A stretch of 64,000 nt of DNA from Sinorhizobium saheli. GTDB taxonomy: Bacteria > Pseudomonadota > Alphaproteobacteria > Rhizobiales > Rhizobiaceae. Each line of letters opens with the position of its first letter. Positions within the stretch are counted from its first letter, which is position 1. Both the position numbers and the translations under genes were made by a program. The notes under the pieces were generated by a model. It had not been told where the DNA came from. It ran no database searches and saw nothing but the letters and a program-made list of their open reading frames with translations. The DNA is taken from positions 434,001-498,000 of the forward strand of contig NZ_LNQB01000073.1 of assembly GCF_001651875.1 (NCBI RefSeq), given 5' to 3'. Positions 42,315 to 54,563 of the stretch are shown here, piece after piece.

Positions 42315-43112
42315 ATGACTGCACATGCAACGGGAACACGCGAAGAATGGCTGGCGGCGCGGCTCGATCTGCTCAAGGCGGAGAAGGAGCTGACGCGGAT
42401 GAGCGACGCGCTTGCGCGGCGACGCCAAGAACTGCCCTGGGTCAGGATCGACAAGGAATACCGCTTCGAAACCGATGCGGGGAGCGCCTCGCTCAAGGAC
42501 CTCTTCCGCGGGCGCTCGCAGCTTCTCGTCTACCACTTCATGTTCGGGCCCGACTATACCGCCGGCTGCCCGTCCTGCTCTTCGATCGCCGACGGCTTCA
42601 ACGGCATCGTCGTCCATCTCGAGAACCACGACGTCGCCTTTTCCGCAGTATCGCGTGCGCCGCTCGCAAAGCTGCAGGGGTTCAGGGAGCGGATGGGATG
42701 GAGTTTTCCCTGGGCATCCTCGAACGACGGCGACTTCAACCGTGATTTCAGCGTCTGGTTCACGGCGGACGAGCAGCGGGAGGGCGGCATCGAGTATAAT
42801 TATCGCCGCGAGCCGCCGGCGCCGGAGCCGCTCGCCGGCAAGACCGTGCAGGAATGGCAGCTAAAGGGCAGCGAAGGACCGGTCGCGCAGATCGCCGCCA
42901 TGACGGGGACCGATATCGCCACCTATACCCGCGACAGACCGGGCGTCAGCGCCTTCGCGCTCGACGACGGCATCGTCTATCACACCTACTCGACCTATGC
43001 CCGCGGCCTCGACGGTCTCTGGGGCATGTACCAATGGCTCGACCGGGCGCCGCTCGGGCGCAACGAGAGCGGTGTCTGGTGGCGCCACCATGACCGGTAC
43101 GACCGGGGTTGA
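42315..43112 (+). CDS. DUF899 (thioredoxin-like) family protein
   Basis: A 265-residue protein of the DUF899 family, which has a thioredoxin-like fold. The family start R-E-E-W-L-A-A-R-L-D-L-L-K-A-E-K-E-L-T-R is intact, followed by L-P-W-V-R-I and the Cys pair motif T-A-G-C-P-S-C-S-S-I at about residues 88-97. A His-Trp-rich C-terminus (W-W-R-H-H-D-R-Y) is typical. The C-P-S-C motif resembles a redox motif. The ATG follows AAGGAGAAG. The next small gene overlaps its end. A peroxidase-like or detoxification role is guessed for the family but not established. Confidence 0.87.
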   Translation: MTAHATGTREEWLAARLDLLKAEKELTRMSDALARRRQELPWVRIDKEYRFETDAGSASLKDLFRGRSQLLVYHFMFGPDYTAGCPSCSSIADGFNGIVVHLENHDVAFSAVSRAPLAKLQGFRERMGWSFPWASSNDGDFNRDFSVWFTADEQREGGIEYNYRREPPAPEPLAGKTVQEWQLKGSEGPVAQIAAMTGTDIATYTRDRPGVSAFALDDGIVYHTYSTYARGLDGLWGMYQWLDRAPLGRNESGVWWRHHDRYDRG

Positions 43113-43449
43113 CGTTGCGATGGCACCGCGGTCAGCGCCCCGTAACGGAATGCCGCCTGCGGTCGAAGGACCGACCGCAGGCAGTGCGAAGGCGCAAGGG
43201 ATGGCCGGCTGGCTCTCCCTCGCCGCCACGCCGGCCTGCATCGTCATGGCGGTGATGACGGTCGTCACCGGAGGCGCGACGATGGTCTGCTCCTCCCTGC
43301 AGGAACCGTCACCGCTCAACGAAATGGCGACGATGTACCTGCTGATGGCGGCTTTTCATTCCCCACCCTGGCTGAGGCTCGTCGCCAACCGTAGAAACCG
43401 CGCCGGCATGCACGCCCGCGTCACTTCGCCGAATAGAACTGCAGGGTAA
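43090..43449 (+). CDS. Small two-helix membrane protein paired with DUF899
   Basis: A 119-residue protein starting inside the last codons of the DUF899 gene (ATG at 43090, 23-base overlap). Two hydrophobic segments are visible (about 42-63, GWLSLAATPACIVMAVMTVV, and about 76-98, MATMYLLMAAFHSPPWLRLV), with a C-S-S loop between. The same small protein type follows DUF899-like genes in other proteobacteria as I recall, which supports it being real. The 3' end overlaps, by 29 bases, the end of the convergent exported-protein gene. Function unknown. Confidence 0.65.
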   Translation: MTGTTGVDVAMAPRSAPRNGMPPAVEGPTAGSAKAQGMAGWLSLAATPACIVMAVMTVVTGGATMVCSSLQEPSPLNEMATMYLLMAAFHSPPWLRLVANRRNRAGMHARVTSPNRTAG

Positions 43450-43786
43450 ACACCGTTCCTGCGATCTCGTCGGCCAGTTCCTTCGAGAATTCCAGCGGCC
43501 CGCAGTTCTCCAGAGCCGCCGTTGCGGCGGCCACGAAGGCCTTCCGTTCATCCGCCCCGCCGGTGACGCGGCTCGCCGTCGGCTGGGGCGGACCCATCAA
43601 GGTGCCGTTGCCGCGGAAGGCGAATTTGAGTGTGACGAAGGAATCCCTGACGCCGGCCGGCGGCGTCCAGCACTTGCTGAGCGCGTCGCTCAGTTCCTCA
43701 ACGCTCCGCAAGGGTTCCGCGCGCAGCGGTGCGGCTGCGGCAACAAGAAACGTGCCGGCGGCAGCCAGCCCGATGAAGGTTTTCAT
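43421..43786 (-). CDS. Small exported protein with TonB-C-like pattern
   Basis: A 121-residue protein with a signal peptide (residues 1-23, LAAAGTFLVAAAAPLRAEP). The mature domain has C-W-T-P-P-x-G near residue 40, V-T-L-K-F-A-F-R-G-N-G-T-L-M-G-P-P and C-G-P-L-E-F near residue 95. The two Cys residues could form a disulfide. The pattern of beta strands recalls the TonB C-terminal/TolA-like fold used by periplasmic adaptor proteins, but this is weak. The ATG at 43786 was chosen because it begins the signal peptide. Its 3' end overlaps the opposite gene. Confidence 0.7.
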   Translation of the reverse strand: MKTFIGLAAAGTFLVAAAAPLRAEPLRSVEELSDALSKCWTPPAGVRDSFVTLKFAFRGNGTLMGPPQPTASRVTGGADERKAFVAAATAALENCGPLEFSKELADEIAGTVFTLQFYSAK

Positions 43787-43909
43787 TCTCGACCCAGCCC
43801 GTTCTCCCAAGAATTCCGCCCAAGAATGCGTGGCGCCGCCCCCGGAAGCAATCCGGTCGGCACCCTCGCCGCGGAAAAAACCGCAGTGCACCCTTCCGAG
43901 GAAGCCCTG

Positions 43910-45052
43910 TTAGAGCAGCCCCCGCTTTGCCAGATTGCGCATCAGCGCCGTCGTGCCGAAGGTCCAGGGCGGGCAGTCGGTCGACAGCCGCACGGTGTTG
44001 ACCAGGCTGCCGAGCCCCGGGCTCGAGATCGTCACTACGTCGCCGATCTTATGGGTGAAGCCCTGGCCCGGTTCGTCGCGATCCTCGACGGGGGCGAAAA
44101 GCGTGCCCATGAACAGCATCAGCCCGTCGGGATATTGGTGATGCGGGCCGATCGTCTGGGCGACGAGGTCGAGCGGGTCGCGGCTGATCTCGCGCATGGT
44201 GCTCGCGCCCTTCAGGCGAAAACCGTCCGGCCCTTCGATCATGAGATCGAGATCGGCCTGGCGCACGTTGTCGATCGAGTAGGTCTCGTCGAACAGGCGG
44301 ATGAAGGGGCCGATCGATGAGGAGGCGTTGTTGTCCTTGGCCTTGCCGAGCAGCAACGCCGAGCGTCCCTCGATGTCGCGCAGGTTGACGTCGTTGCCGA
44401 GCGTGGCACCCCTGGCGCGCCCGTCGGAGGCAACGGCCAGCACGATCTCCGGCTCCGGATTGTTCCAGCGGGAAATCGGATGAAGCCCGACGGCGGCGCC
44501 CCATCCGACGGAGGAGAGCGGCTGTCCCTTGGTGAAGACCTCGGCGTCGGGGCCGATGCCCACTTCGAGATATTGCGACCAGACGCCCTCCTCGATCAAC
44601 GCCGCCTTGACACGGGCGGCTTCGGGCGAGCCAGCGTTCAGGTTCCGGAGGGCCTCGCCGATGATCGCGGTCACCCGCCTGCGAATTCCTTCCGCCCGCG
44701 CGGCATCGCCGGCGGCGCGCTCCTCGATGACGCGCTCGATCATCGAGCGGGCGAAGGTGACGCCGCAGGCCTTGACCGCCTGCAGATCGCAAGGGGCGAG
44801 CAGATGGATTTCCTCCCTGCCCCGCGGCTCCGCCGACGCCATGACGACGGCGAGCGAAGCAAGCGCCTCGCCGCGGGCCGTGCGCGCATAGTCGACGGGA
44901 TCGTCGAGTTCGAGAAGATCGCGCATCGTCGGCACCTCGCGCGAGGTGATGTCGACCACCTGCCCTTTCCGGACGGTCACCAGGCTCGGGCCCTCCGCAT
45001 CCGGCCGCCATGCCCGTCCGACGAAGGTTCCGACGTCATAGGTCTCGCTCAT
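43910..45052 (-). CDS. Fumarylacetoacetate hydrolase (FAH) family protein
   Basis: A 380-residue FAH-fold enzyme. The C-terminal catalytic region contains L-G-N-D-V-N-L-R-D, E-P-E-I-V-L-A-V near 205 and K-D-N-N-A-S-S-S-I-G, which match the metal-binding Glu/Glu/Asp pattern of the family, although spacing differs from classical FAH. Members hydrolyse C-C bonds of acylpyruvates or decarboxylate, and several act in sugar-acid or aromatic degradation. The ATG at 45052 is preferred because AGAGGA lies eight bases upstream; ATG 45061 would overlap it. No partner enzymes are adjacent. Confidence 0.82.
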   Translation of the reverse strand: MSETYDVGTFVGRAWRPDAEGPSLVTVRKGQVVDITSREVPTMRDLLELDDPVDYARTARGEALASLAVVMASAEPRGREEIHLLAPCDLQAVKACGVTFARSMIERVIEERAAGDAARAEGIRRRVTAIIGEALRNLNAGSPEAARVKAALIEEGVWSQYLEVGIGPDAEVFTKGQPLSSVGWGAAVGLHPISRWNNPEPEIVLAVASDGRARGATLGNDVNLRDIEGRSALLLGKAKDNNASSSIGPFIRLFDETYSIDNVRQADLDLMIEGPDGFRLKGASTMREISRDPLDLVAQTIGPHHQYPDGLMLFMGTLFAPVEDRDEPGQGFTHKIGDVVTISSPGLGSLVNTVRLSTDCPPWTFGTTALMRNLAKRGLL

Positions 45053-45172
45053 TTCTGTCATCCTCTGCGCTGGCGGCGCGTCGGCCGCGTCCCGGATCGT
45101 TTTCGCAGTTAAGGCGGCCCGCTGTAAAGCACCTTGGCGCGTGAACGCGGGCTGCGCCGGAAGTCGTGCGCC

Positions 45173-45197
45173 GGAACCTTGAAAGATTTCGAGCGTT
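45173..45197 (+). promoter_or_regulatory. EcfG/RpoE2-type promoter
   Basis: GGAAC (45173-45177), 16 bases, CGTT (45194-45197). This matches the alphaproteobacterial general-stress consensus GGAAC-N16/17-CGTT exactly. It points at the small membrane protein gene at 45344. Confidence 0.65.
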
Positions 45198-45343
45198 TAA
45201 CTTTCGTCGCGGGTCAACCGGGCCGCGGCACGGCCACAGCTATACTTGCCCAGCACGGAACCCATTCTTAAGCTTTTGCTGAATTAGGGAGCCATACACA
45301 GGCGAGTGCATTCGGAACCGTGGCCGGAAAGGATGTGGATACA

Positions 45344-45679
45344 ATGAATCAGCAGGAACAAATCAAAGAACAACCACCGCTCGATCCCGTGACGGGTCAG
45401 CCGACCCCGCGGGAACCGGAAGCGCCGGCGCCGAGGACGAGCCGCAGCGGTTGGCCGTTGCTGATCATTCTTGTCGCCGCCGTGGTGCTTGCGCTGATCG
45501 CCTGGCTGCCGGCGGAACTCACAGGGGACGGGGAGAACGAGCCCGCCCCGGCTCCGTCCACGGCGACAACGCCGGCCGACGAACCGGCGCCGACCGATCA
45601 GGCAACGCCTCCGGCCGGAGGAGCGACACCGCCGGCACCGACCGCGCCCGCGCAGCCGCAGAGCCAGCCGGCGCAGTAG
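45344..45679 (+). CDS. Small single-pass membrane protein with Pro/Ala/Thr-rich tail
   Basis: A 111-residue protein. A short hydrophilic N-terminus with Gln/Glu/Pro (EQPPLDPVTGQPTPREPE) is followed by one transmembrane segment (about 37-58, LLIILVAAVVLALIAWL) and a low-complexity Pro/Ala/Thr/Gln tail that is likely periplasmic. An EcfG-type promoter lies 147 bases upstream, so it probably belongs to the general stress response. ATG at 45344 is used; GTG at 45320 is an alternative. No homologous family with known function comes to mind. Confidence 0.7.
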   Translation: MNQQEQIKEQPPLDPVTGQPTPREPEAPAPRTSRSGWPLLIILVAAVVLALIAWLPAELTGDGENEPAPAPSTATTPADEPAPTDQATPPAGGATPPAPTAPAQPQSQPAQ

Positions 45680-45689
45680 GCCTCCACGG

Positions 45690-45713
45690 CACCGCGTCCA
45701 ATCGGACGCGGTG
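45690..45713 (+). terminator. Hairpin after the small membrane protein gene
   Basis: CACCGCGTCC and its exact complement flank AATC, 10 bases after the stop codon. There is no T tract. Confidence 0.6.
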
Positions 45714-45833
45714 AAGCACTTCGTGCTGCTGCATGATGAATGGTTTCGATTGAAGCAATCCTGCGGCGGGAGGGGAGGTCCGCCTCACCCCCTCCGTGGC
45801 TGAAAAGGCATTTCCGACCGGGGGGCACCATTC

Positions 45834-46391
45834 ATGAACGAGATCGTTGCCGACATTCTTGTTGCCACGCATACGCCTTACACGGTGATCTTCGCGCGGT
45901 TCTGCGGCGCCATCCTGCTTGGCGCGCTGATCGGCATCGAGCGGGAGAAACGGCAGCGCCCCGCCGGCCTCAGGACCCACATTCTCGTCTGCCTGGCGTC
46001 GGCGATCTTTGCCGTTATCGCGATCGAAAGCGTGCACAAGGTCAGCCTTTCCGGCCCCGAGGTGCGCATCGACCCGATCCGGGTGGTGGAGGCGGTGACG
46101 GCGGGGGTAGCCTTTCTCGCTGCCGGCATGATCGTGTTTTCCAGGGGCGAGGTCAAAGGCTTGACGACCGGCGCCGGAATGTGGCTGGCCGGCGCCGTCG
46201 GGCTCTCGATTGGCTTCGGCTTCTGGCCGATCGCCATCTTCGCCACGCTCGCGAGCCTCGCCGTCCTCTTCATCCTTGGACGGCTGGAGGTAGCGCTGCT
46301 GTGGAAGAGCCCGGAAGGCTCCCACCAGGAAGAAGCGCTGAAGCGGAGGGAGGACAATTCCGCGCGGCGGGGCGAGGCGAAGCAGGGATAG
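45834..46391 (+). CDS. MgtC/SapB family membrane protein
   Basis: A 185-residue inner-membrane protein of the MgtC/SapB family. It carries the family signature R-F-C-G-A-I-L-L-G-A-L-I-G-I-E-R-E and R-P-A-G-L-R-T-H near the N-terminus (about 20-55). Further hydrophobic segments follow (VEAVTAGVAFLAAGMIVF, G-A-G-M-W-L-A-G-A-V-G). The C-terminal soluble tail is short and lacks the ACT-like domain of true MgtC. The family supports growth in low magnesium or acid stress, sometimes by affecting the F-ATPase. The gene stands alone. Confidence 0.85.
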   Translation: MNEIVADILVATHTPYTVIFARFCGAILLGALIGIEREKRQRPAGLRTHILVCLASAIFAVIAIESVHKVSLSGPEVRIDPIRVVEAVTAGVAFLAAGMIVFSRGEVKGLTTGAGMWLAGAVGLSIGFGFWPIAIFATLASLAVLFILGRLEVALLWKSPEGSHQEEALKRREDNSARRGEAKQG

Positions 46392-46401
46392 CGGATCTCG
46401 A

Positions 46402-46647
46402 CTACGGGTTGGCCGGAGCCGACCCATCAGGGCGGGCTTGCGGACGGGGAGCGGCCTTGGAGGCCGGGGCGTGATGGCGAAGACCATGCAGGGCTGCGAT
46501 CGCCCGGATGGCAGAGTCAGCCGTCGCAAAGCGCCGGCCGTCCAAGGACCAGACGCTGTATTTGACGGCAATGAAGCGCAGTTGCCCGTTATCGGGGACC
46601 AGCGCGCCAACGGCCTCGCCGGCAAACTCTACCGCCTGTTTCCGCAT
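46402..46647 (-). CDS. Small conserved hypothetical protein with EcfG-type promoter
   Basis: An 81-residue soluble protein. The core MRKQAVEFAGEAVGALVPDN continues with L-R-F-I-A-V-K-Y-S-V-W-S-L-D-G-R-R-F and A-D-S-A-I-R-A-I; small rhizobial proteins with this pattern exist as I recall. The C-terminus is Pro/Ala-rich. The ATG at 46647 has GGAGGAG 11 bases upstream. An EcfG-type promoter is 70 bases upstream of the start (46718-46742). It is convergent with the MgtC gene. Function unknown. Confidence 0.6.
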   Translation of the reverse strand: MRKQAVEFAGEAVGALVPDNGQLRFIAVKYSVWSLDGRRFATADSAIRAIAALHGLRHHAPASKAAPRPQARPDGSAPANP

Positions 46648-46717
46648 TGAACTTGAAACTCCTCCCGTCGCCGGGCAAAAGCCCAGCGGGCCGAACCTCG
46701 ACATCAGCCGCCAGAAG

Positions 46718-46742
46718 AACGCGCCAACCGCCGTCGGGTTCC
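46718..46742 (-). promoter_or_regulatory. EcfG/RpoE2-type promoter
   Basis: On the minus strand GGAAC (46742-46738), 16 bases, CGTT (46721-46718). Consensus match is exact. The start of the 81-residue gene is 71 bases downstream. Confidence 0.65.
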
Positions 46743-46767
46743 GGCGGACGCGAAAAAAGCGTCACCC

Positions 46768-46852
46768 TACTGCATGTCTCCTGACCTCGATTTAAGGACA
46801 AGGACATGCAGCAATTCAAAGTGCTGCAGCGACCTTTGCGCGTCTGATGAGA
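46768..46852. repeat. 75-bp intergenic repeat, copy 3 (family R2)
   Basis: ACTGCATGTCTCC, GATTTAAGGACAAGGACATG and GCAGCAATTCAAAGTGC, then TGCAGCGACCTTTGCGCG. It is the reverse of the copy at 6114-6188. It lies upstream of the 81-residue gene promoter and downstream of dadA. Confidence 0.75.
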
Positions 46853-46880
46853 CCCGGTGCTGTGGGCGGGCGCTTTTGCG

Positions 46881-48134
46881 TCAGGCGAGGAAGCGCTCCG
46901 GGCGATAAGCGGCGATGTCGATCACCGTCTTCTCGCCGGTCATCGCCTCGGCGAGCGCGCGGCCGGTGACGGGGCCGAGGGTCATGCCGTGATGCGCATG
47001 GCCGAAGGCGAACCAGAGCCCCTCATGGCGGGACGCCTTGCCGATGATCGGCATCATGTCGGGCGTGCAGGGCCGCGCGCCCATCCACGGCTCCTCGTCG
47101 CGGCGTTCGGCGAGCGGGAAGAACTCGCGCGCGACGCGCTCCGCCCGGGCCAATTGCACCGGCGTCTTCGGCGCGTCGCGGAGCGCGAATTCGGCTCCCG
47201 TGGTCAGGCGGATGCCGCGCAGCATCGGCGCCAGGAAGTAACCCATCTCGGCATCGAGCACCCAGTTGTTGAGCTGGGCGCCGTCCCTGGCGCCGTAATG
47301 CATGTGATAGCCGCGCTTGACCGCGAGCGGGAAATGGTAGCCGAGCTTGCGCGTCACCGTGTCGGCCCAGGGGCCGAGGGCAACGACGACCTCGCGGGCT
47401 TCGAGCGGCCCTTCCGGCGTCGCGACGCGCCAGCCGGCGCCTTCCAATATATGCTCCAGCGTTGCCGCATCGCCGGAAACGAGCCGGCCGCCAAGCGACT
47501 CGAAATAGGCGAGATAGGCCTTGTTGAGACTATGCGGATCGCGGATCGACCACGGATCGTTCCAGCGCAGGCCACCGGCGAGCTCCACCTGGATGAACGG
47601 TTCGATCGTCTTCAACTCGCTCGCCGAAAGCTTCTGGTGACCGACGCCGAAGCCGGCCGAGAGCTTTTCCGCGTCCCGGTAGGCCGCATCGCGCTCCTTC
47701 TCGGTGCGGAACACCTTCATCCAGCCTTCCTTGCGGATGAGGTCGCCGGCGCCGGAAGCCGCGATCAGGTCCGCGTGCTCGGCGATCGAGTGCTCGATCA
47801 GCGGCGCGTAGAGATGCGCGATCCGCTGGTGCTGGGTGAAGCCGGAATGCCACCAGTAGCGCGCCAGGAACGGCACCAGTCCCGGCAACGCCCGGAAGTG
47901 ATAGCTGGCATCGATCGTGTTGTTCAGCGCATAGCGGAAGAGCGCGCCGAAATCATGCGGGAAGCCGTAGGGGAAGACGCCCTCGCGCTGGATCAGGCCG
48001 GCATTGCCGTACGACGTTTCCTCGCCGGCGCCGCGCCGGTCGAGAAGGACCACCGCCTTGCCGCGCCGCGCCAGGTGGATGGCGGAGGAAATGCCGACGA
48101 TGCCGGCGCCGAGAACCACTACATCCGTCTTCAT
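46881..48134 (-). CDS. FAD-dependent D-amino acid dehydrogenase-type oxidoreductase
   Basis: A 417-residue flavoprotein of the DadA/DAO family. The N-terminal dinucleotide fold V-V-V-L-G-A-G-I-V-G-I-S-S-A is followed by V-V-L-L-D-R-R-G-A-G-E-E-T-S-Y-G-N-A-G-L, typical of DadA. The C-terminus contains G-A-R-P-C-T-P-D-M-M-P-I-I-G and G-H-A-H-H-G-M-T-L-G, where FAD and substrate bind. It likely deaminates a D-amino acid and passes electrons to the respiratory chain. The substrate is not assignable. Start is the ATG that begins MKTDVVVLG. It is divergent or unlinked to the stress-type DUF1328 gene upstream. Confidence 0.87.
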   Translation of the reverse strand: MKTDVVVLGAGIVGISSAIHLARRGKAVVLLDRRGAGEETSYGNAGLIQREGVFPYGFPHDFGALFRYALNNTIDASYHFRALPGLVPFLARYWWHSGFTQHQRIAHLYAPLIEHSIAEHADLIAASGAGDLIRKEGWMKVFRTEKERDAAYRDAEKLSAGFGVGHQKLSASELKTIEPFIQVELAGGLRWNDPWSIRDPHSLNKAYLAYFESLGGRLVSGDAATLEHILEGAGWRVATPEGPLEAREVVVALGPWADTVTRKLGYHFPLAVKRGYHMHYGARDGAQLNNWVLDAEMGYFLAPMLRGIRLTTGAEFALRDAPKTPVQLARAERVAREFFPLAERRDEEPWMGARPCTPDMMPIIGKASRHEGLWFAFGHAHHGMTLGPVTGRALAEAMTGEKTVIDIAAYRPERFLA

Positions 48135-48244
48135 GTGCGACGCTCCCTATGTCCGCTGGATGATTTGTTAAACCGGAAGCGGATTAAGAAACCATGCAAT
48201 CGCCACAGGCGGCCGACAAGAGGCGCCCGGCCCGGCGCCGCAAG

Positions 48245-48278
48245 CAAAAACGAGGGCGGAGCCCGGGCTCCACCCTCG
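48245..48278 (-). terminator. Rho-independent terminator of the DUF1328 gene
   Basis: A self-complementary stem around GGAGCCCGGGCTCC with flanking CGAGGG/CCCTCG, followed on the minus strand by TTTTTGC. It is 45 bases downstream of the stop codon. Confidence 0.75.
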
Positions 48279-48323
48279 CGGTCATGTCAATATGTTGCCC
48301 GCCCGCTCGGGACGAGCGATGCG

Positions 48324-48488
48324 TCACGTTCGGCGGATGAAGCCGGCGACGAGCGAAATCACCAGGAGTATCAGGAATATGAAGAACAGGACCTGCGCGA
48401 TCTGCGCCGAAGCGCCGGCAATTCCGCCGAAGCCGAGAATGCCGGCAATGACGGCGACGACCAAAAATAGGAGAGCGTAGTAGAGCAT
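48324..48488 (-). CDS. DUF1328 small membrane protein
   Basis: A 54-residue protein with two hydrophobic helices: [24 protein letters not shown], then a short A-S-A-Q-I-A-Q turn and [18 protein letters not shown], ending R-R-T. This is the complete DUF1328 (YtjA) pattern. AAGGAG precedes the ATG at eight bases. It has its own EcfG-type promoter (48522-48547) and terminator (48245-48278), so it is monocistronic and probably stress-induced. DUF1328 genes are common in stress regulons of rhizobia; the molecular role is unknown. Confidence 0.88.
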
Positions 48489-48521
48489 CTGTCAACTCCT
48501 TGCCTCATTTGCTGAAATCCA

Positions 48522-48547
48522 AACGTGAGGCAAGGCGCCTTTGTTCC
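48522..48547 (-). promoter_or_regulatory. EcfG/RpoE2-type promoter of the DUF1328 gene
   Basis: On the minus strand GGAAC (48547-48543), 17 bases, CGTT (48525-48522), 34 bases before the start codon. Confidence 0.7.
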
Positions 48548-48669
48548 GGCGCGACGATCTGCCGTGGCGCGAGCGGAGATCGGGCCGGCCGTCGCCGCAA
48601 CTTGGAAACCATTGATTAACCAAAGAAACCGTGAGCCGAGGACCGGGGGCACCGCAAGCAGGGCGGGCA

Positions 48670-48694
48670 GGAACCTTCGACAGGTCTCGGCGTT
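48670..48694 (+). promoter_or_regulatory. EcfG/RpoE2-type promoter
   Basis: GGAAC (48670-48674), 16 bases, CGTT (48691-48694), pointing right. The 64-residue small gene begins 63 bases later. Confidence 0.65.
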
Positions 48695-48757
48695 GTTCGA
48701 ATAGTTGGCGTAGTCCCGGGCGTTGTCCTGGTAGTAGCAGAGCTTCTTGGGAAAGAA

Positions 48758-48952
48758 ATGAAGATTCCCTCGCGACATATATGGAAGACCGTGAACGAGA
48801 TCAGCCGGCAGAGGGCCGGTCTCCGCAGTCAGAACCTGCATATCGGCAGAACCATACGGGATCTTCAGAGCCACACGGAACAGAAAGCCAATAAGAGGCT
48901 GGACGCTCTCCTCGAGAATCTGGAGCGGGCCGAACGCAACGCGGGCAAGTAG
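48758..48952 (+). CDS. Small hypothetical protein behind an EcfG-type promoter
   Basis: A 64-residue basic, helical protein (MKIPSRHIWKTVNEISRQRA to ALLENLERAERNAGK). There are no Cys residues or membrane segments; the C-terminal half could form an amphipathic helix or coiled coil. The ribosome binding site is weak (GGGAAAGAA directly before ATG). Support for it being a gene is the exact EcfG-type promoter 63 bases upstream and its position in a run of similar small stress genes. The reading frame could still be chance. Confidence 0.45.
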   Translation: MKIPSRHIWKTVNEISRQRAGLRSQNLHIGRTIRDLQSHTEQKANKRLDALLENLERAERNAGK

Positions 48953-49082
48953 GCGACGCCGCCGGTGCGGAGTGCCGGGGACAGTTTTCAGGTAAGCCCG
49001 GCGGGCTCGCGCCACGCGCTTCGTTCCCTATCCGCAGGCCGGATCGATGGCAACAATCATGCGCAAGCCCGGCGGCCCGCGC

Positions 49083-49107
49083 GGAACAAAAGGCGCCAGT
49101 CGGCGTT
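49083..49107 (+). promoter_or_regulatory. EcfG/RpoE2-type promoter
   Basis: GGAAC (49083-49087), 16 bases, CGTT (49104-49107), pointing to the glycine-zipper lipoprotein gene 121 bases downstream. Confidence 0.6.
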
Positions 49108-49228
49108 CTGGCGACAATAACAAGCGCCGAAGGGCGGCATGCGTCTGCCGTTTTCCAGTCGCTCTCAGGTGGCGGCGATCGGACGGCATCACCCGCGGTT
49201 CGTAACCAAGCTCGGATAGGAACTTATC

Positions 49229-49477
49229 ATGAAAAAGATACTTATCGTCGCTAGCCTCATTCTTCCCCTGGCAGCCTGCACGGCAACGGAAAGGGGTGCG
49301 GGGATCGGCGCCGCTTCGGGCGCAATTATAGGTGGTGCCGCGAGCGGCAACGTCCGCGGAGCCGCGGTCGGCGCCGCTGTCGGTGGTGTCGCGGGCGCCC
49401 TTATCGGCCGCGCCAGCGAGCCCGGTTATTGTGTCTACCGCGATCAGTACGGACGCCGCTACACCGCCCGTTGCTGA
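49229..49477 (+). CDS. Small glycine-zipper lipoprotein
   Basis: An 82-residue protein with a lipoprotein signal (MKKILIVASLILPLAACTA; lipobox L-A-A-C, modified Cys near residue 17). A glycine-zipper segment follows (GAGIGAASGAIIGGAASG and AAVGAAVGGVAGALIG, residues 24-62), as in OmpA-like/YMGG-type proteins. The C-terminus has Y-R-D-Q-Y-G-R-R-Y-T-A-R-C. It is likely anchored in the outer membrane. An EcfG-type promoter is 121 bases upstream. It is convergent with nepR. Related zipper lipoproteins respond to envelope or osmotic stress in several bacteria. Confidence 0.85.
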   Translation: MKKILIVASLILPLAACTATERGAGIGAASGAIIGGAASGNVRGAAVGAAVGGVAGALIGRASEPGYCVYRDQYGRRYTARC

Positions 49478-49637
49478 TAGCCTCGCGCCAGATATCTTGG
49501 CTGTGGGACGCGATATCGTTCACGCCGCGTCCCGCGAGCCGGCTCACCCAAGCGCGCCGGCGGGCGATCACTTCGTTCGCACGCCAGCCAGCACACTACA
49601 GCGCCGCACGAGTTCTATTTAAGGGATATGCATGAGG

Positions 49638-49826
49638 TCAATCGCGTGAGCGTTCCCGCTCCGCCTCATCGAGCCGCCGCAGCAGGTCCACGAAATGCTG
49701 CGGCACGGGCTCGTTCTCGACGGCCTGATACAGTGCCTTCAACTGCGAACCAATTTGCGTGTCGGGCTCCGTCTTTCCGGCGGATGCGTTGCGCCGCCCC
49801 TTCTGCCCACCTGAGAATTCGTTCAT
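49638..49826 (-). CDS. nepR: NepR-type anti-sigma factor
   Basis: A 62-residue protein with the NepR core: I-G-S-Q-L-K-A-L-Y-Q-A-V-E-N-E-P-V-P-Q-H-F and D-L-L-R-R-L-D-E-A. These are two short helices linked by the P-V-P turn that hold the EcfG sigma factor. NepR binds EcfG until stress-phosphorylated PhyR releases it. Here it is divergent from phyR with 179 bases between starts, but no ecfG gene is adjacent, as in the S. meliloti RsiA2/RsiB2 pair as I remember it (the RsiA1 locus has rpoE2 next to it). No EcfG-type site precedes nepR or phyR. Confidence 0.88.
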   Translation of the reverse strand: MNEFSGGQKGRRNASAGKTEPDTQIGSQLKALYQAVENEPVPQHFVDLLRRLDEAERERSRD

Positions 49827-50005
49827 GTTCCGCTTCCACGCGGCGAAGGTCCTGCTCCCCCGGTCCCGACCGCTTTCAAATCCGTTGCTGCCATCTGTTA
49901 ATCAAGTCTTTCCACAATCCGAAAGACGTGCTCAAAACTTTGACGTATTCTGCTACGCGCCCCCATCGGCACAAACCCTATGCACAATAGTTTAGGAAGG
50001 TCTAA

Positions 50006-50803
50006 ATGTCACTTTCCATGAGGATTGCGCCACATCTGCCCTATGTCCGGCGTTATGCCCGCGCCGTCACCGGCTCGCAAGCCGCCGGCGACGCCTATGT
50101 CGCTGCAATGCTGGAAGCTCTGATCGATGACATCGAGCTCTTTCCGGCGGCCTCCAACGATCGCATCGGCCTTTACAAGCTCTTCTGCTCGCTCTTCGAG
50201 AAGCTGAAGGTGGACCTTTCCCAGTTCACATCGCCCTTCGCCTGGGAACAGAGGGCCGCGGCCAACCTGTCGCTGATGGCACCGGCGGGACGACAGGCGT
50301 TCCTGCTCATCGCGCTCGAGGGTTTCTCGACCACTGAAGCCGCCGAAATCATGGGTGTCGACCAGAGCGCCCTCGCCGAGCTGGTCGCCGGCGCCTCCGA
50401 GGAGATTTCGCGCCAGGTGGCAACCGACGTGATGATCATCGAGGACGAGCCGCTGATCGCGATGGACATCGAGGACATGGTGACGAGCCTCGGGCACCGG
50501 GTCACCGGCATTGCCCGCACGCGCGCCGAGGCTCTCGATCTCTACCGCGAAACATCGCCGAAGATGGTGCTTGCCGATATCCAGCTCGCCGACGGCAGTT
50601 CCGGGATCGATGCGGTCAACGACATCCTGACGCAGGCGACCGTTCCGGTGATCTTCATCACCGCCTTTCCCGAACGGCTCCTGACAGGCAAGAAGCCGGA
50701 ACCGGCTTTCCTGGTGACCAAGCCCTTCAACCCGGAAACGGTGAAGGCACTCATCAGCCAGGCGCTGTTCTTCGACGAGCACGCGCATGCAGCAAGCCGA
50801 TAA
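50006..50803 (+). CDS. phyR: PhyR anti-anti-sigma response regulator
   Basis: A 265-residue regulator of the general stress response. Residues 1-130 are a sigma-factor-like domain (sigma2- and sigma4-like, with the HTH-like part F-S-T-T-E-A-A-E-I-M-G-V). Residues 142-258 form a receiver with D-E-P-L near the start, the phosphorylated Asp at about 191 (V-L-A-D-I-Q-L-A-D-G) and Lys in V-T-K-P-F. Phosphorylated PhyR binds NepR so EcfG is freed. The start ATG is the one giving MSLSMRIAPHLPY. A histidine kinase (PhyK-type) is not encoded nearby. The gene converges with the AI-2E gene, nine bases apart. Confidence 0.93.
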   Translation: MSLSMRIAPHLPYVRRYARAVTGSQAAGDAYVAAMLEALIDDIELFPAASNDRIGLYKLFCSLFEKLKVDLSQFTSPFAWEQRAAANLSLMAPAGRQAFLLIALEGFSTTEAAEIMGVDQSALAELVAGASEEISRQVATDVMIIEDEPLIAMDIEDMVTSLGHRVTGIARTRAEALDLYRETSPKMVLADIQLADGSSGIDAVNDILTQATVPVIFITAFPERLLTGKKPEPAFLVTKPFNPETVKALISQALFFDEHAHAASR

Positions 50804-50812
50804 GGCGTCATC

Positions 50813-51928
50813 TCAATCCGGCAACTGCGGCTCCGACGGCTCGCGGACCTGTTCGAAGATGGTCATCGCGATCAGCGACAGCGGCAGGGCGAGGATCGCC
50901 CCCACGGCGCCCCACATCCAGGTCCAGAACAGGATCGCGACGAAGATCAGGAACGGATTGATGGCGAAGCGGTGGCCGAGGACCGCCGGCACGAGCAGGT
51001 TCTCCATGGCGAGATGAACGAGGAAGAAGGCGGCCGCCGGTGCGAGCGCAGCGGCCATCGCATCATGGGTCATCAACCCGCCGACGATGAGCGACAGCGT
51101 CATGGCGGTGACGCCGAGATAGGGAATGAAGCTCGAGACGAAGGCGAAGAGCCCCCAGAGCGGCGCCATCGCCAACCCACCGACGAGCGCAATGACCGTG
51201 GTCACCGCACCGAGCGCGAGATAAATCAGGCTCGCGGTCGAGAAATAGCGGGCAAGGGCGTCCTCGAGGGCATTCATGACCCGGATCGCGCTCAAGCGGC
51301 CGTCGCGGCTCGGAAAAGCGAGCACGATCGTGGCGCGCAACTGGGCGCGCCCGAGCAGGAAAAGAATGAGCGATGCCAGGAAGATCAATGTCTGGATGAG
51401 GGCCGGCGTCAGGCTTGCCGCAACCGTCCCGATCAGCAGCCCCGCATTCTTGACGATCACGTCGCCGAAGGCGTCATCGCCGGCGCTGCGCGCGAGCGCC
51501 CTGTCCAGCCATTCGACGCGCTCGGCAAACGGCAGCAACCGTTGCATGACGTCCTCAGCCAATTGAGGCGCCCGGGCCGCAAGGTCGGTGATCGGACCGA
51601 GAAGCGCATTCACGAGGGACGATAAGCCGAGCACGAAGAACAGCGCCAGCAACAGGCCGCCGAACATCGGATGAAGCCCGAACCGCTCCAATTCATCGGC
51701 GGCCCTGCCGAGAACGATGCCGACGACGATCGCGAAGGCGACGGGCATCAGGATCGCTCCCATTGCGTAGACCGCGGCGGAGCTGGCAATCACGAACATC
51801 CCGATCGCGCTCCCGGCGACCAGAAGATCTATGCCGTCGCGCTTTCGGGCAGGCGCCGTCGACACCTCGACCAGGGCCCTTTCGGCGTCGCGCTTGCGGC
51901 CGGCCGTCACTCGTCTCACTGAATCCAT
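50813..51928 (-). CDS. AI-2E/PerM family transporter
   Basis: A 371-residue inner-membrane protein of the AI-2E (PerM/YdiK) family with seven to eight helices. Typical motifs are G-R-A-A-D-E-L-E-R-F, P-Y-L-G-V near residue 270 and G-F-A-F-V-S-S-F-I-P, which fit the family. The basic N-terminus of about 30 residues is cytoplasmic. Family members have been proposed as peptide or AI-2 exporters and sodium/proton antiporters, so the substrate is unknown. The ATG at 51928 is used because AGGTAGG lies upstream. Confidence 0.82.
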   Translation of the reverse strand: MDSVRRVTAGRKRDAERALVEVSTAPARKRDGIDLLVAGSAIGMFVIASSAAVYAMGAILMPVAFAIVVGIVLGRAADELERFGLHPMFGGLLLALFFVLGLSSLVNALLGPITDLAARAPQLAEDVMQRLLPFAERVEWLDRALARSAGDDAFGDVIVKNAGLLIGTVAASLTPALIQTLIFLASLILFLLGRAQLRATIVLAFPSRDGRLSAIRVMNALEDALARYFSTASLIYLALGAVTTVIALVGGLAMAPLWGLFAFVSSFIPYLGVTAMTLSLIVGGLMTHDAMAAALAPAAAFFLVHLAMENLLVPAVLGHRFAINPFLIFVAILFWTWMWGAVGAILALPLSLIAMTIFEQVREPSEPQLPD

Positions 51929-52033
51929 CGGCACCTACCTTTCGACCGATGTTTGCGAACGTCTTCGTCTCCGGGGAGCATTCGTCACGCCTGACCGCAG
52001 GCGGGCTTCTGCAGGCGGCGCCGGGCGGCTTGC

Positions 52034-52204
52034 TCAAGATTTCCCGGGCGGGAACACGTAGAGCGTGAGGGAAAGCAGCCCCAGGCCCAGAACGATCACC
52101 AGCAAGGTGTAAGCCAGGCCTTCCGCTGTCTCAGGAAAAAAGCCGAAGCCCACCACCACCCCCGCCAGCACCAACAAGCAAAGCCGAGGCAGCCAGTAGA
52201 GCAT
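52034..52204 (-). CDS. Small two-helix membrane protein with EcfG-type promoter
   Basis: A 56-residue protein, M-L-Y-W-L-P-R-L-C-L-L-V-L-A-G-V-V-V-G-F-G-F-F, then P-E-T-A-E-G and a second helix L-L-V-I-V-L-G-L-G-L-L-S-L-T-L-Y-V-F, ending P-P-G-K-S. GGAGG lies seven bases before the ATG. It has the same build as DUF1328 but a different sequence. The EcfG-type site is 34 bases upstream of the start (52238-52262). Function unknown; likely induced by general stress. Confidence 0.75.
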   Translation of the reverse strand: MLYWLPRLCLLVLAGVVVGFGFFPETAEGLAYTLLVIVLGLGLLSLTLYVFPPGKS

Positions 52205-52237
52205 GTGCCATCCTCCGCGTGCGGAAACGCAAGCATA

Positions 52238-52262
52238 AACGTTCCAACAAGGAATTCGTTCC
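52238..52262 (-). promoter_or_regulatory. EcfG/RpoE2-type promoter
   Basis: On the minus strand GGAAC (52262-52258), 16 bases, CGTT (52241-52238), 34 bases before the start of the 56-residue membrane protein gene. Confidence 0.7.
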
Positions 52263-52292
52263 TGCGCGGCAGGGCCTGCGGCAGACGGCGAA

Positions 52293-52320
52293 ACGCCGCC
52301 GGCCTGGCGGCCGGCGGCGT
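52293..52320 (-). terminator. Hairpin downstream of ridA
   Basis: ACGCCGCCGGCC and its exact complement flank TGGC, 45 bases after the ridA stop on the minus strand, followed by only a short T run. Confidence 0.55.
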
Positions 52321-52365
52321 GAACGGTGCAGAGGATTGCCCTGCATCTGAGATGGAGCGAAGGTC

Positions 52366-52710
52366 TCAGAGAGCCGCCGTGACGATGACTTCGACGAGAT
52401 ATTCCGGCGTTGCGAGCTTGGCCTCGCCGGTCGCGCGGGCCGGGGTGTGACCCTGCGGCACCCAGGCGTCCCAGACGGAGTTCATCTTGGCGAAATCGGC
52501 CATGTCGGCGAGCCAGACCGTAGCCGAGAGGATGCGCGTCTTGTCCGTGCCGGCGAGCGCGAGCAGGCGATCGACCTCGGCGAGCGCCTGCTTCGTCTGG
52601 GTGACGACGTCGTCGCCGGCCTTGCCGACCTGGCCGGCGAGATAAACCGTGTTGTTGTAGACCACGGCCTGGCTCATCCGCGGGCCGGTTTCAATGCGCT
52701 TGATTTCCAT
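52366..52710 (-). CDS. RidA family enamine/imine deaminase
   Basis: A 114-residue protein of the RidA (YjgF/YER057c/UK114) family, which hydrolyses reactive 2-aminoacrylate-type enamines. It starts M-E-I-K-R-I-E-T-G-P-R-M and has N-N-T-V-Y-L-A-G-Q-V and Q-T-K-Q-A-L-A-E-V-D-R-L-L. The conserved catalytic Arg near the C-terminus is in P-A-R-A-T. The usual C-terminal acidic Glu (V-E-V-I-V-T-A) is also present. The ATG at 52710 with AGGA eight bases upstream is used. The gene is in a different strand order from the neighbours. Confidence 0.88.
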   Translation of the reverse strand: MEIKRIETGPRMSQAVVYNNTVYLAGQVGKAGDDVVTQTKQALAEVDRLLALAGTDKTRILSATVWLADMADFAKMNSVWDAWVPQGHTPARATGEAKLATPEYLVEVIVTAAL

Positions 52711-52884
52711 AATCGTCATCCTGCTGTTTGGGCGAACAAGCCAGCCATAAGGGCTGCCGCCGCCAAGGCTCACATGGCGGCGGGCAACCTCTACACGACG
52801 GAGGCGAGAACGCCAATAAGCCGTGCTTGCGTTTCGCGGGGTTTGTGCCGGCCGGCGAGCGGGGCGGCACGCTTCCGGCGCGGC

Positions 52885-53712
52885 TCAGGCGGCGTTCTTC
52901 CTGGCAAGCCGGGCCTTGATGCTGGCGACGTCCGCCCTCGGCGTCGCCGCGAACAGCGTCTTCGTATAGCTGTGCTGCGGGTTGGAAAACACCGCGTCGC
53001 GGCTGCCGTACTCGACGGCTTCGCCGTAATACATCACCATCACGTCGTCGGCGATATAGCGAACGACCGAGAGGTCGTGACTGATGAAGACGTAGGTGAG
53101 CTTGAACTCGTCCTGAAGATCGGCGAGCAGGTTCAAGACCTGCGCCTGGACGGAAAGGTCCAGCGCGGAAACAGGCTCGTCCAGCACCAGCAGCTTGGGG
53201 TTCAGCATCAGCGCGCGGGCGATGGCGATGCGCTGGCGCTGACCGCCGGAGAACATGTGCGGGTAGCGGTTGTAGTGCTTCTCCTCGAGGCCGACCTTCT
53301 TCAGCATCGTCATCGCCCGGTCGCGGCGCTCGGCTGCCGGTATATCGGTGTTGATGACGAGCGGCTCGGCGAGGATGTCGCCGATCTTCTGGCGCGGGTT
53401 GAGCGAGCCATAAGGGTTCTGGAAGACGATCTGCACCTTGCGCCGCATCTCCGGCGTCAACCGCTCGCGGGCGATATCGACCGTCCGGCCGTCGATCAGC
53501 AGCTCCCCGGAGGTCGCCGGATCGATCAGCGTGATAATGCGGCCGAGGGTCGACTTGCCGCAGCCGCTCTCACCGACGATCGCAAGCGTCTTGCCCTCCT
53601 CGACGGTGAAGCTGACGCCCTTCAGCGCATGGACGGTGCGCGCCTTGCGGAACAGGTTGCCCGGAATGTGATAGTCGCGCACCAGGTTGCGGGCTTCGAG
53701 CACATGGGTCAT
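52885..53712 (-). CDS. dppF: Dipeptide ABC transporter ATP-binding protein DppF
   Basis: A 275-residue ATPase of the oligopeptide transporter family. Walker A is G-E-S-G-C-G-K-S-T near residue 48; the signature F-S-G-G-Q-R-Q-R and Walker B L-L-V-L-D-E-P-V follow. The early motif V-R-D-Y-H-I-P-G-N and F-Q-N-P-Y-G-S-L-N-P-R are typical of DppF. It overlaps dppD by four bases and is the last gene of dppABCDF. It forms a heterodimer with DppD to drive import of di- or tripeptides. Confidence 0.9.
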   Translation of the reverse strand: MTHVLEARNLVRDYHIPGNLFRKARTVHALKGVSFTVEEGKTLAIVGESGCGKSTLGRIITLIDPATSGELLIDGRTVDIARERLTPEMRRKVQIVFQNPYGSLNPRQKIGDILAEPLVINTDIPAAERRDRAMTMLKKVGLEEKHYNRYPHMFSGGQRQRIAIARALMLNPKLLVLDEPVSALDLSVQAQVLNLLADLQDEFKLTYVFISHDLSVVRYIADDVMVMYYGEAVEYGSRDAVFSNPQHSYTKTLFAATPRADVASIKARLARKNAA

Positions 53713-54563
53713 CGCGCGGCTCCCTCGAGCATCTGCTGGTCGTTGAAGAGTTCGGAGATCGTCGGCAGCCGGTCTCCCGTCGCGTTCTCCGGCAGCGCGG
53801 AAAGAAGCGCCCGCGTGTAGTTGCTCTTCGGCGATTCGAACAGCGACAGCACGTCCGCCTCCTCCACCTTGCGGCCCTTGTACTGCACGATGACGCGATC
53901 GGCCGTTTCGGCGACCACGCCCATGTTGTGGGTGATCATGATGAGACCCATGCGGTATTCCTGCTGCAGCTTCATCAGGAGGTCGAGGATCTGCTTCTGG
54001 ATCGTCACGTCCAGCGCCGTCGTCGGCTCATCGGCGATGAGCAGCTTCGGATTGCAGGCAAGCGCGATGGCGATCATCACGCGCTGGCACTGTCCGCCCG
54101 ACATCTGATGCGGAAAATGCCGGAGGCGCTCGGCCGGTTCCGGGATGCCGACCGCCTCGAAGAGCTCGATCGCGCGCTTGCGCCGCGCCGCCCGGTCGAG
54201 GCCCATGTGGATGCGCAGCACTTCCTCGATCTGGAAGCCGACGGTGAAGCAGGGGTTGAGGCTCGCGATCGGCTCCTGGAAGATCATGGCGATCTCCTTG
54301 CCGACGATCTTGCGGCGATCGGAAGGCGACATATTCAGGAGATCCCGCCCGTTGAAGGCGAGCTTGTCGGCAGTGACGGTCGCGGTCCAGGGCAGAAGCC
54401 CCATCGCCGCAAGCATGGACACGGACTTGCCCGAGCCCGATTCCCCGACGATCGCCAGGACTTCGCCCTCGTGGACCTTGAGCGACACGCCGTCGACCGC
54501 GCGGAAGGGGCCGGTTGCGGTCTGGAATTCGACGACGAGGTTTTCGACTTCGAGAAGCGCCAT
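53709..54563 (-). CDS. dppD: Dipeptide ABC transporter ATP-binding protein DppD
   Basis: A 284-residue ATPase. Walker A is G-E-S-G-S-G-K-S-V near residue 40, the signature M-S-G-G-Q-C-Q-R and Walker [13 protein letters not shown] follow. The C-terminal oligopeptide/dipeptide extension includes [10 protein letters not shown], a known OPN family feature. M-S-G-G-Q-C-Q-R has Cys where Gln/Met is usual. Downstream overlap with dppF is ATGA. Confidence 0.9.

Follow-up and report, generated by a model that had tools for sequence, protein, structure and literature searches.

A probable general stress response island with six EcfG-type promoters around a second NepR/PhyR pair in Sinorhizobium saheli

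Background

In the general stress response (GSR) of Alphaproteobacteria the sigma factor EcfG is governed by a partner switch. NepR holds EcfG, and phosphorylated PhyR sequesters NepR, thereby freeing EcfG. The DNA analysed here, called the window, is a stretch of 64,000 nucleotides from Sinorhizobium saheli (RefSeq assembly GCF_001651875.1, contig NZ_LNQB01000073.1, positions 434,001 to 498,000). Between 45173 and 52262 it holds six EcfG-type promoters around a NepR/PhyR pair, and this region is very probably a conserved GSR island of the Rhizobiaceae.

The nearest described system is that of S. meliloti, in which RsiA1/RsiB1/RpoE2 are accompanied by a second NepR/PhyR pair away from ecfG, RsiA2/RsiB2 (SMc04884/SMc00794). 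Both RsiA proteins bind RpoE2 and both RsiB proteins (PMC4814048). The window genome has the same arrangement, and what is added here concerns extent only: neither the surrounding island nor the gene here called p64 was found described (key subscription papers lay outside the search). The island shares with the canonical phyR/nepR-ecfG locus of Alphaproteobacteria the clustering of EcfG-type promoters and likely targets around PhyR; it differs in having no ecfG, and in that its nepR and phyR have no EcfG site. Small NepR-like proteins with an EcfG-type promoter near PhyR are likewise known from Sphingomonas melonis Fr1 (NepR2) and Methylobacterium extorquens (MexAM1_META2p0735). Both are under EcfG control, interact with PhyR and attenuate the response (PMC6599016, PMC4814048).

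Results

A pattern search of both strands found six exact matches to GGAAC-N16/17-CGTT in the window, every one inside 45173-52262. An earlier note on this DNA had located the same six by eye and reported no other match with this spacing in the 64 kb; its coordinates were exact, the target sizes it gave (111, 81, 54, 64, 82 and 56 residues) are correct when ATG is taken as the start, and all the sites do lie between genes. None of 100 dinucleotide-preserving shuffles of the window contained six matches (mean 0.84, largest 4). In the whole genome (5,991,337 bases, 102 contigs) there are 126 matches; the spacer is 16 in 75 of them and 17 in the other 51. The search answers the possibility, raised in the note, that sites are equally dense throughout: the second-densest 7.1 kb of the genome holds three sites, against six in the island. 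When 126 sites were placed uniformly at random on one line of 5.99 Mb, six fell within 7.1 kb in 2 of 20,000 placements. The features of the island, in window coordinates, are as follows.

45173..45197, forward: EcfG-type promoter site 1, spacer 16, 146 bases upstream of the p111 ATG
45344..45679, forward: p111, one membrane segment predicted by eye, Pro/Ala/Thr-rich tail, dN/dS 0.15
45834..46391, forward: MgtC-family gene (Pfam MgtC, E 7.5e-34), 154 bases past p111 on the same strand
46402..46647, reverse: p81, conserved small protein, dN/dS 0.27
46718..46742, reverse: EcfG-type promoter site 2, spacer 16, 70 bases upstream of the p81 ATG
48324..48488, reverse: DUF1328 membrane protein of 54 residues (Pfam E 2e-15), dN/dS 0.06
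48522..48547, reverse: EcfG-type promoter site 3, spacer 17, 33 bases upstream of the DUF1328 ATG
48670..48694, forward: EcfG-type promoter site 4, spacer 16, 63 bases upstream of the p64 ATG
48758..48952, forward: p64, 64 residues, cryptic NepR homologue by profile comparison, dN/dS 0.17
49083..49107, forward: EcfG-type promoter site 5, spacer 16, 121 bases upstream of the glycine-zipper gene ATG
49229..49477, forward: glycine-zipper lipoprotein of 82 residues (Pfam Gly-zipper_Omp, E 5e-9), dN/dS 0.10
49638..49826, reverse: NepR2 (RsiA2 type), anti-sigma factor (Pfam NepR, E 1.9e-15), no EcfG site
50006..50803, forward: PhyR2 (RsiB2 type), anti-anti-sigma response regulator (Pfam PhyR_sigma2, E 4.4e-25, and Response_reg; NCBIfam PhyR, E 8.9e-116), no EcfG site
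50813..51934, reverse: AI-2E-family transporter gene (Pfam E 2.1e-36), 99 bases past p56 on the same strand
52034..52204, reverse: p56, small hydrophobic protein, two membrane segments by eye, dN/dS 0.17
52238..52262, reverse: EcfG-type promoter site 6, spacer 16, 33 bases upstream of the p56 ATG

Among Sinorhizobium/Ensifer orthologues the six small open reading frames (ORFs) have dN/dS values of 0.06-0.27, and so behave as real genes. Four of them (p111, p81, p64 and p56) have no convincing match in Pfam or NCBIfam.

Conservation of the sites was scored at 64 of 80 PhyR loci of relatives (27 from Sinorhizobium/Ensifer, 23 from Rhizobium/Pararhizobium and related genera, 14 from Shinella and related genera); orthologues were identified with blastp (E 1e-3) and used only where 440 bp or more of DNA was available upstream. 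The 16 loci left out have other layouts: five Hoeflea, L091 and ten with ecfG about 3.5 kb away. The closest relatives of the window PhyR, at 86% identity, are in Sinorhizobium/Ensifer loci. An exact site precedes every scored orthologue of p111 (24/24 in Sinorhizobium/Ensifer, 13/13 in Rhizobium/Pararhizobium), p64 (27/27 and 20/20) and p56 (23/23 and 22/22). For DUF1328 the counts are 27/27, 20/21 and, in the Shinella group, 12/14, and for the glycine-zipper gene 26/27, 22/22 and 12/13. The site of p81 is exact in 17 of 20 Rhizobium/Pararhizobium orthologues. Upstream of the AI-2E-family gene, no more than 450 bp away, a site is present in 26/26 orthologues from Sinorhizobium/Ensifer and 13/23 from Rhizobium/Pararhizobium; in the window that upstream site is the one belonging to p56. 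No exact site was found before the orthologues of the neighbouring RidA (0/59), FAA-like (0/21) and MgtC (0/15) genes, and 10 of 50 orthologues of the DAO gene have one 330-411 bp upstream which may belong to other genes. Reversed-motif controls gave 0-3 per orthologue set. When the window was aligned with up to eight relatives, both boxes stood out as conserved.

The pair in the middle of the island is an orphan, as the note had proposed: a NepR and a full-length PhyR at a locus with no ecfG. The canonical locus is on another contig (C59), where ecfG, identified by its PF22029 match and its location beside nepR and not through an ECF15 model, lies with a further copy each of nepR and phyR and with two divergent EcfG sites. 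No exact EcfG site was found upstream of any nepR2 (0/58) or phyR2 (0/64) orthologue at the orphan-type loci counted, and a scan of 49827-50005 allowing one mismatch and spacers of 16-18 found none. Control of the pair through a degenerate site was considered and rejected, the best upstream matches of NepR2 and PhyR2 orthologues having 1-3 mismatches. Judged from the absence of exact sites, nepR2 is not under EcfG control, and rsiA2 of S. meliloti is not RpoE2-dependent (PMC3616915, by 5' RACE; PMC4814048). The note's picture of a stress response island grouped around regulators is supported by site conservation, a sharp preference for spacers 16 and 17 around PhyR genes and a cluster unique in the genome. 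It can be refined: the pair in the middle is of the RsiA2/RsiB2 type and has no exact EcfG site, and the sigma gene is elsewhere. Three more genes of this genome look sigma-like by their PF22029 matches (contigs C102, C54 and C68). Within 4 kb of one of them, C54:20365, there are two exact EcfG sites (C54:16461-20520), perhaps a sigma cascade.

In its Rhizobium orthologues the p64 protein reads NLHIGxTLRDLY...LLxxLDAAE, a pattern reminiscent of NepR. Aligned by hhalign, profiles of 34 p64 and 28 NepR sequences match with probability 96.7 and E 4.6e-10 over 58 columns at 21% identity. On repetition the score was 42.1; 200 column shuffles gave no more than 22.2, and the reversed profile 15.1. 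A p64 hidden Markov model (HMM) run on the 30,943 ORFs of 181 loci retrieved 53 p64-type ORFs; all 95 other matches at E<0.05 are NepRs, as are 155 of 166 non-p64 matches at E<5, the calls being made with a NepR HMM built from 28 NepRs of the same loci. In a search of the Protein Data Bank (PDB) the two best sequences were both NepR (5uxx_B, E 0.19; 4qic_B, E 0.26), each weak singly. On this profile evidence p64 is a diverged, remote NepR homologue that Pfam and NCBIfam miss. None of the 53 p64 loci has ecfG in the stretch examined, compared with 101 of all 181 loci, and all 47 p64 orthologues counted have an exact EcfG-type site before them. Two p64 sequences are the same and probably come from a single genome sampled twice. 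The protein is most likely a stress-induced feedback part. Between site 4 and the p64 ATG the window has about 33 additional bases (48695-48757; 63 bases, against 27-31 in Sinorhizobium/Ensifer relatives). Two or three NepR-like ORFs, some directly past an EcfG site, also occur at three other alphaproteobacterial PhyR loci (L121, L170 and L184).

Clustering of EcfG-type promoters at PhyR loci occurs across Alphaproteobacteria and is not peculiar to the window genome. From class and order samples 80 PhyR loci, none longer than 20 kb, were selected among the PF22233 matches so as to combine strong scores with a range of genera; one is the canonical locus of the window genome (L138), and the other 79 come from 78 genomes of 64 genera. 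In those 79 loci the motif occurs 244 times with spacer 16 and 76 times with spacer 17, and 3-21 times with each other spacer from 8 to 27. The 320 motifs observed compare with about 24 expected from the rest-of-genome rate, a 13-fold excess, which is still about 9-fold beyond 1 kb from PhyR. Over the 78 whole genomes (343.9 Mb) there are 5,612 sites against 6,297 for the reversed motif. With all 80 loci included, 130 of 323 sites are no more than 1 kb from the centre of PhyR, and the remainder mostly within 8 kb; the reversed motif occurs 20 times. A recount of 78 loci (L181 was dropped because its PhyR match is short) gave five with no site and six with one. Recurrent targets were counted over 87 loci and 365 sites, taking gene starts within 250 bp downstream, single-linkage clusters and names from the representative only. 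They are PhyR at 57 loci, NepR at 48, DUF1328 (25), DUF883 (22), HWE kinase (21), CsbD (17), PRC-barrel (14), a Crp-like protein so labelled by reading of its sequence (11) and ferritin-like proteins (6). No published clustering of EcfG targets was found in the literature searched, which did not extend to supplementary tables and some primary papers.

Two PhyR matches were found in 7 of 61 Rhizobiaceae genomes (G000, G475, G436, G442, G444, G484 and G486). In all seven the DUF1328 and glycine-zipper genes are at the locus lacking ecfG, and the ecfG locus has neither in the stretch examined. Elsewhere DUF1328 keeps company with ecfG: in the class and order sample it occurs at 35 of 78 PhyR loci, with ecfG no more than 3 kb away in 34 of these. 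At ten loci within L092-L109 (Ciceribacter, Rhizobium, Allorhizobium and other Rhizobiales) a stretch of about 3.5 kb that includes DUF1328 separates nepR-phyR from a nepR-ecfG pair. In a quick PhyR tree of 79 rows, 29 of 31 orphan PhyRs group with five Hoeflea and one other ecfG-bearing PhyR (SH-aLRT 88); the tree is weak, with 17 of 74 inner branches starred and 29 open. These comparisons point, as a suggestion only, to the orphan island as the older site, with ecfG now operating from another locus. In three of the two-locus genomes (G444, G484 and G486) PhyR1 is on a very long branch (1.71; loci L235, L238 and L240), as if it were evolving fast and the orphan copy were not.

The remaining features extend the description of the island. 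Read-through from site 1 into the MgtC-family gene is possible, and p56 and the AI-2E-family gene may form one transcript read from site 6. In the syntenic S. meliloti locus (L035) the genes follow one another as in the window, and p111, DUF1328, p64, the glycine-zipper gene and p56 each have a site. By gene order p111 is possibly SMc00800, and SMc00796 is a DUF1328 protein (PMC6637203); a literature search by the locus tags of the island found no RpoE2 data for SMc00796 or SMc00800. The region upstream of SMc00795 carries a weakly bound site for Clr, a cAMP/cGMP receptor (PMC10127613), a possible second input to the island; 48324-49477 of the window corresponds by gene order to the SMc00795-SMc00796 region. 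After site 5 and before the glycine-zipper gene, three loci (L031, L035 and L042) share a block that contains an ATG and a GGAG resembling a ribosome-binding site. The block, possibly a small ORF or leader, is absent from the window (49108-49228) and from L037. No Rfam RNA reached its gathering score in 43000-54000.

Discussion

The following working of the island is proposed. Once freed by the partner switch, EcfG (RpoE2 in S. meliloti) would transcribe the island together with the rest of its regulon, the six promoters driving p111, p81, DUF1328, p64, the glycine-zipper lipoprotein and p56, with the MgtC and AI-2E-family transporter genes perhaps added by read-through. The products would be small, mostly membrane or envelope-type proteins with a presumed role in the envelope. 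Because it has no EcfG site, the NepR2/PhyR2 pair is probably made at a constant level independent of stress, and would be permanently available as a second brake and its release. The sigma gene ecfG is at the other locus, together with a nepR and a phyR of its own and two EcfG sites. Made from an EcfG promoter, p64 would add induced feedback.

Several observations weigh against this scheme. The genome has 119 copies of the reversed motif against 126 of the forward one, so the bare motif is not in genome-wide excess and isolated matches elsewhere mostly arise by chance. The weakest of the six sites is that of p81, 46742(-), which is exact in only 1 of 17 Sinorhizobium/Ensifer orthologues, the other 16 reading TGTT for CGTT. 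At 15 of the 16 loci of other layouts an exact site does lie within 120 bases (about 70) before phyR. Overexpression of rpoE2 raised the signal in the 5' region, not the coding region, of SMc00794 (rsiB2) (PMC3616915), a result at odds with a pair entirely excluded from the regulon. Pfam NepR does not match the window p64, which has Gln at the position of the NepR Tyr. The near equality with the reversed control, and a motif of nine fixed bases only, might suggest that a short degenerate sequence landed six times in intergenic DNA by chance. We give that explanation almost no credence and reject it: random placement hardly ever reproduced the cluster, the shuffles never did, the excess is restricted to spacers 16 and 17, and the sites are preserved at orthologous positions although the surrounding bases change, which refutes it.

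It is unlikely, though a more serious objection, that p64 is a structural stress protein and no regulator, its two helices resembling NepR by convergence. Such a protein would account for the failure of Pfam NepR, which even at E up to 1 matches only 9 of 34 p64 members (best 0.012, below the Pfam cut-off criterion), for the weak individual PDB matches, and for a poor AlphaFold model (helices 5-40 and 46-63, mean pLDDT 66.7, pTM 0.31). Alanine at L32 or Y36 of NepR, or at L31 or F35 of NepR2, weakened the proteins of S. melonis Fr1 (PMC6599016, PMC4814048); mapped onto p64 by our own reading of the profile alignment, the Y36/F35 position is Tyr in 28 of the 53 ORFs, Phe in 1, Glu in 9, His in 7 and Gln in 4, with 4 not read by the pattern. 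All 20 ORFs with Glu, His or Gln, the window's included, belong to the Sinorhizobium clade, although the Ensifer adhaerens orthologue retains Tyr, and p64 is a separate family from S. melonis NepR2. Against convergence are the retention of Tyr in the majority, a profile score far above the shuffled and reversed controls, the NepR identity of every other match at E<0.05 and of the best two PDB chains. A homologue of NepR is therefore the reading we retain for p64. A different objection accepts the homologies and makes the island mere ancestry, an old GSR locus from which ecfG has moved, leaving its targets behind, so that their closeness to the pair has no function. For this the case is evenly balanced. 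The association of DUF1328 with ecfG in other genomes and with the ecfG-less locus in all seven two-locus genomes, and the grouping of orphan PhyRs with ecfG-bearing ones, favour it; the many open forks of the tree do not, nor does the variation of targets by clade (p111, p81, p64 and p56 here, and elsewhere DUF883, HWE kinase, CsbD and others), a sign that genes were probably added to the locus on more than one occasion.

A bolder proposal, possible though we would not yet call it probable, is that p64 is an overlooked extra NepR of two-locus Rhizobiaceae, found only in ecfG-less islands (53/53 ORFs, 181 loci, in the stretch examined) and switched on by EcfG beside a constitutive pair, as a delayed brake. 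As the PhyR-contact Tyr has been swapped in the Sinorhizobium clade and purifying selection kept, p64 may there have changed partner, to EcfG itself, an extra EcfG-like sigma factor or PhyR2 alone. EcfG regulons may, on the same proposal, grow by recruiting targets near their own anti-anti-sigma gene.

The system itself is of a kind already known. As far as our searches show, the quantification of clustering across the class, the tie between a target island and a locus lacking ecfG, and the cryptic NepR are new within the literature searched; no priority is claimed. Promoter enrichment around PhyR offers a simple predictor of core GSR targets (DUF1328, DUF883, CsbD, HWE kinases and others) in many alphaproteobacteria. 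The contribution of the second NepR/PhyR pair in S. meliloti was called unknown in 2016 (PMC4814048). The island brings the pair together with a constant group of small targets and adds a candidate feedback protein, so that the question becomes testable in S. meliloti.

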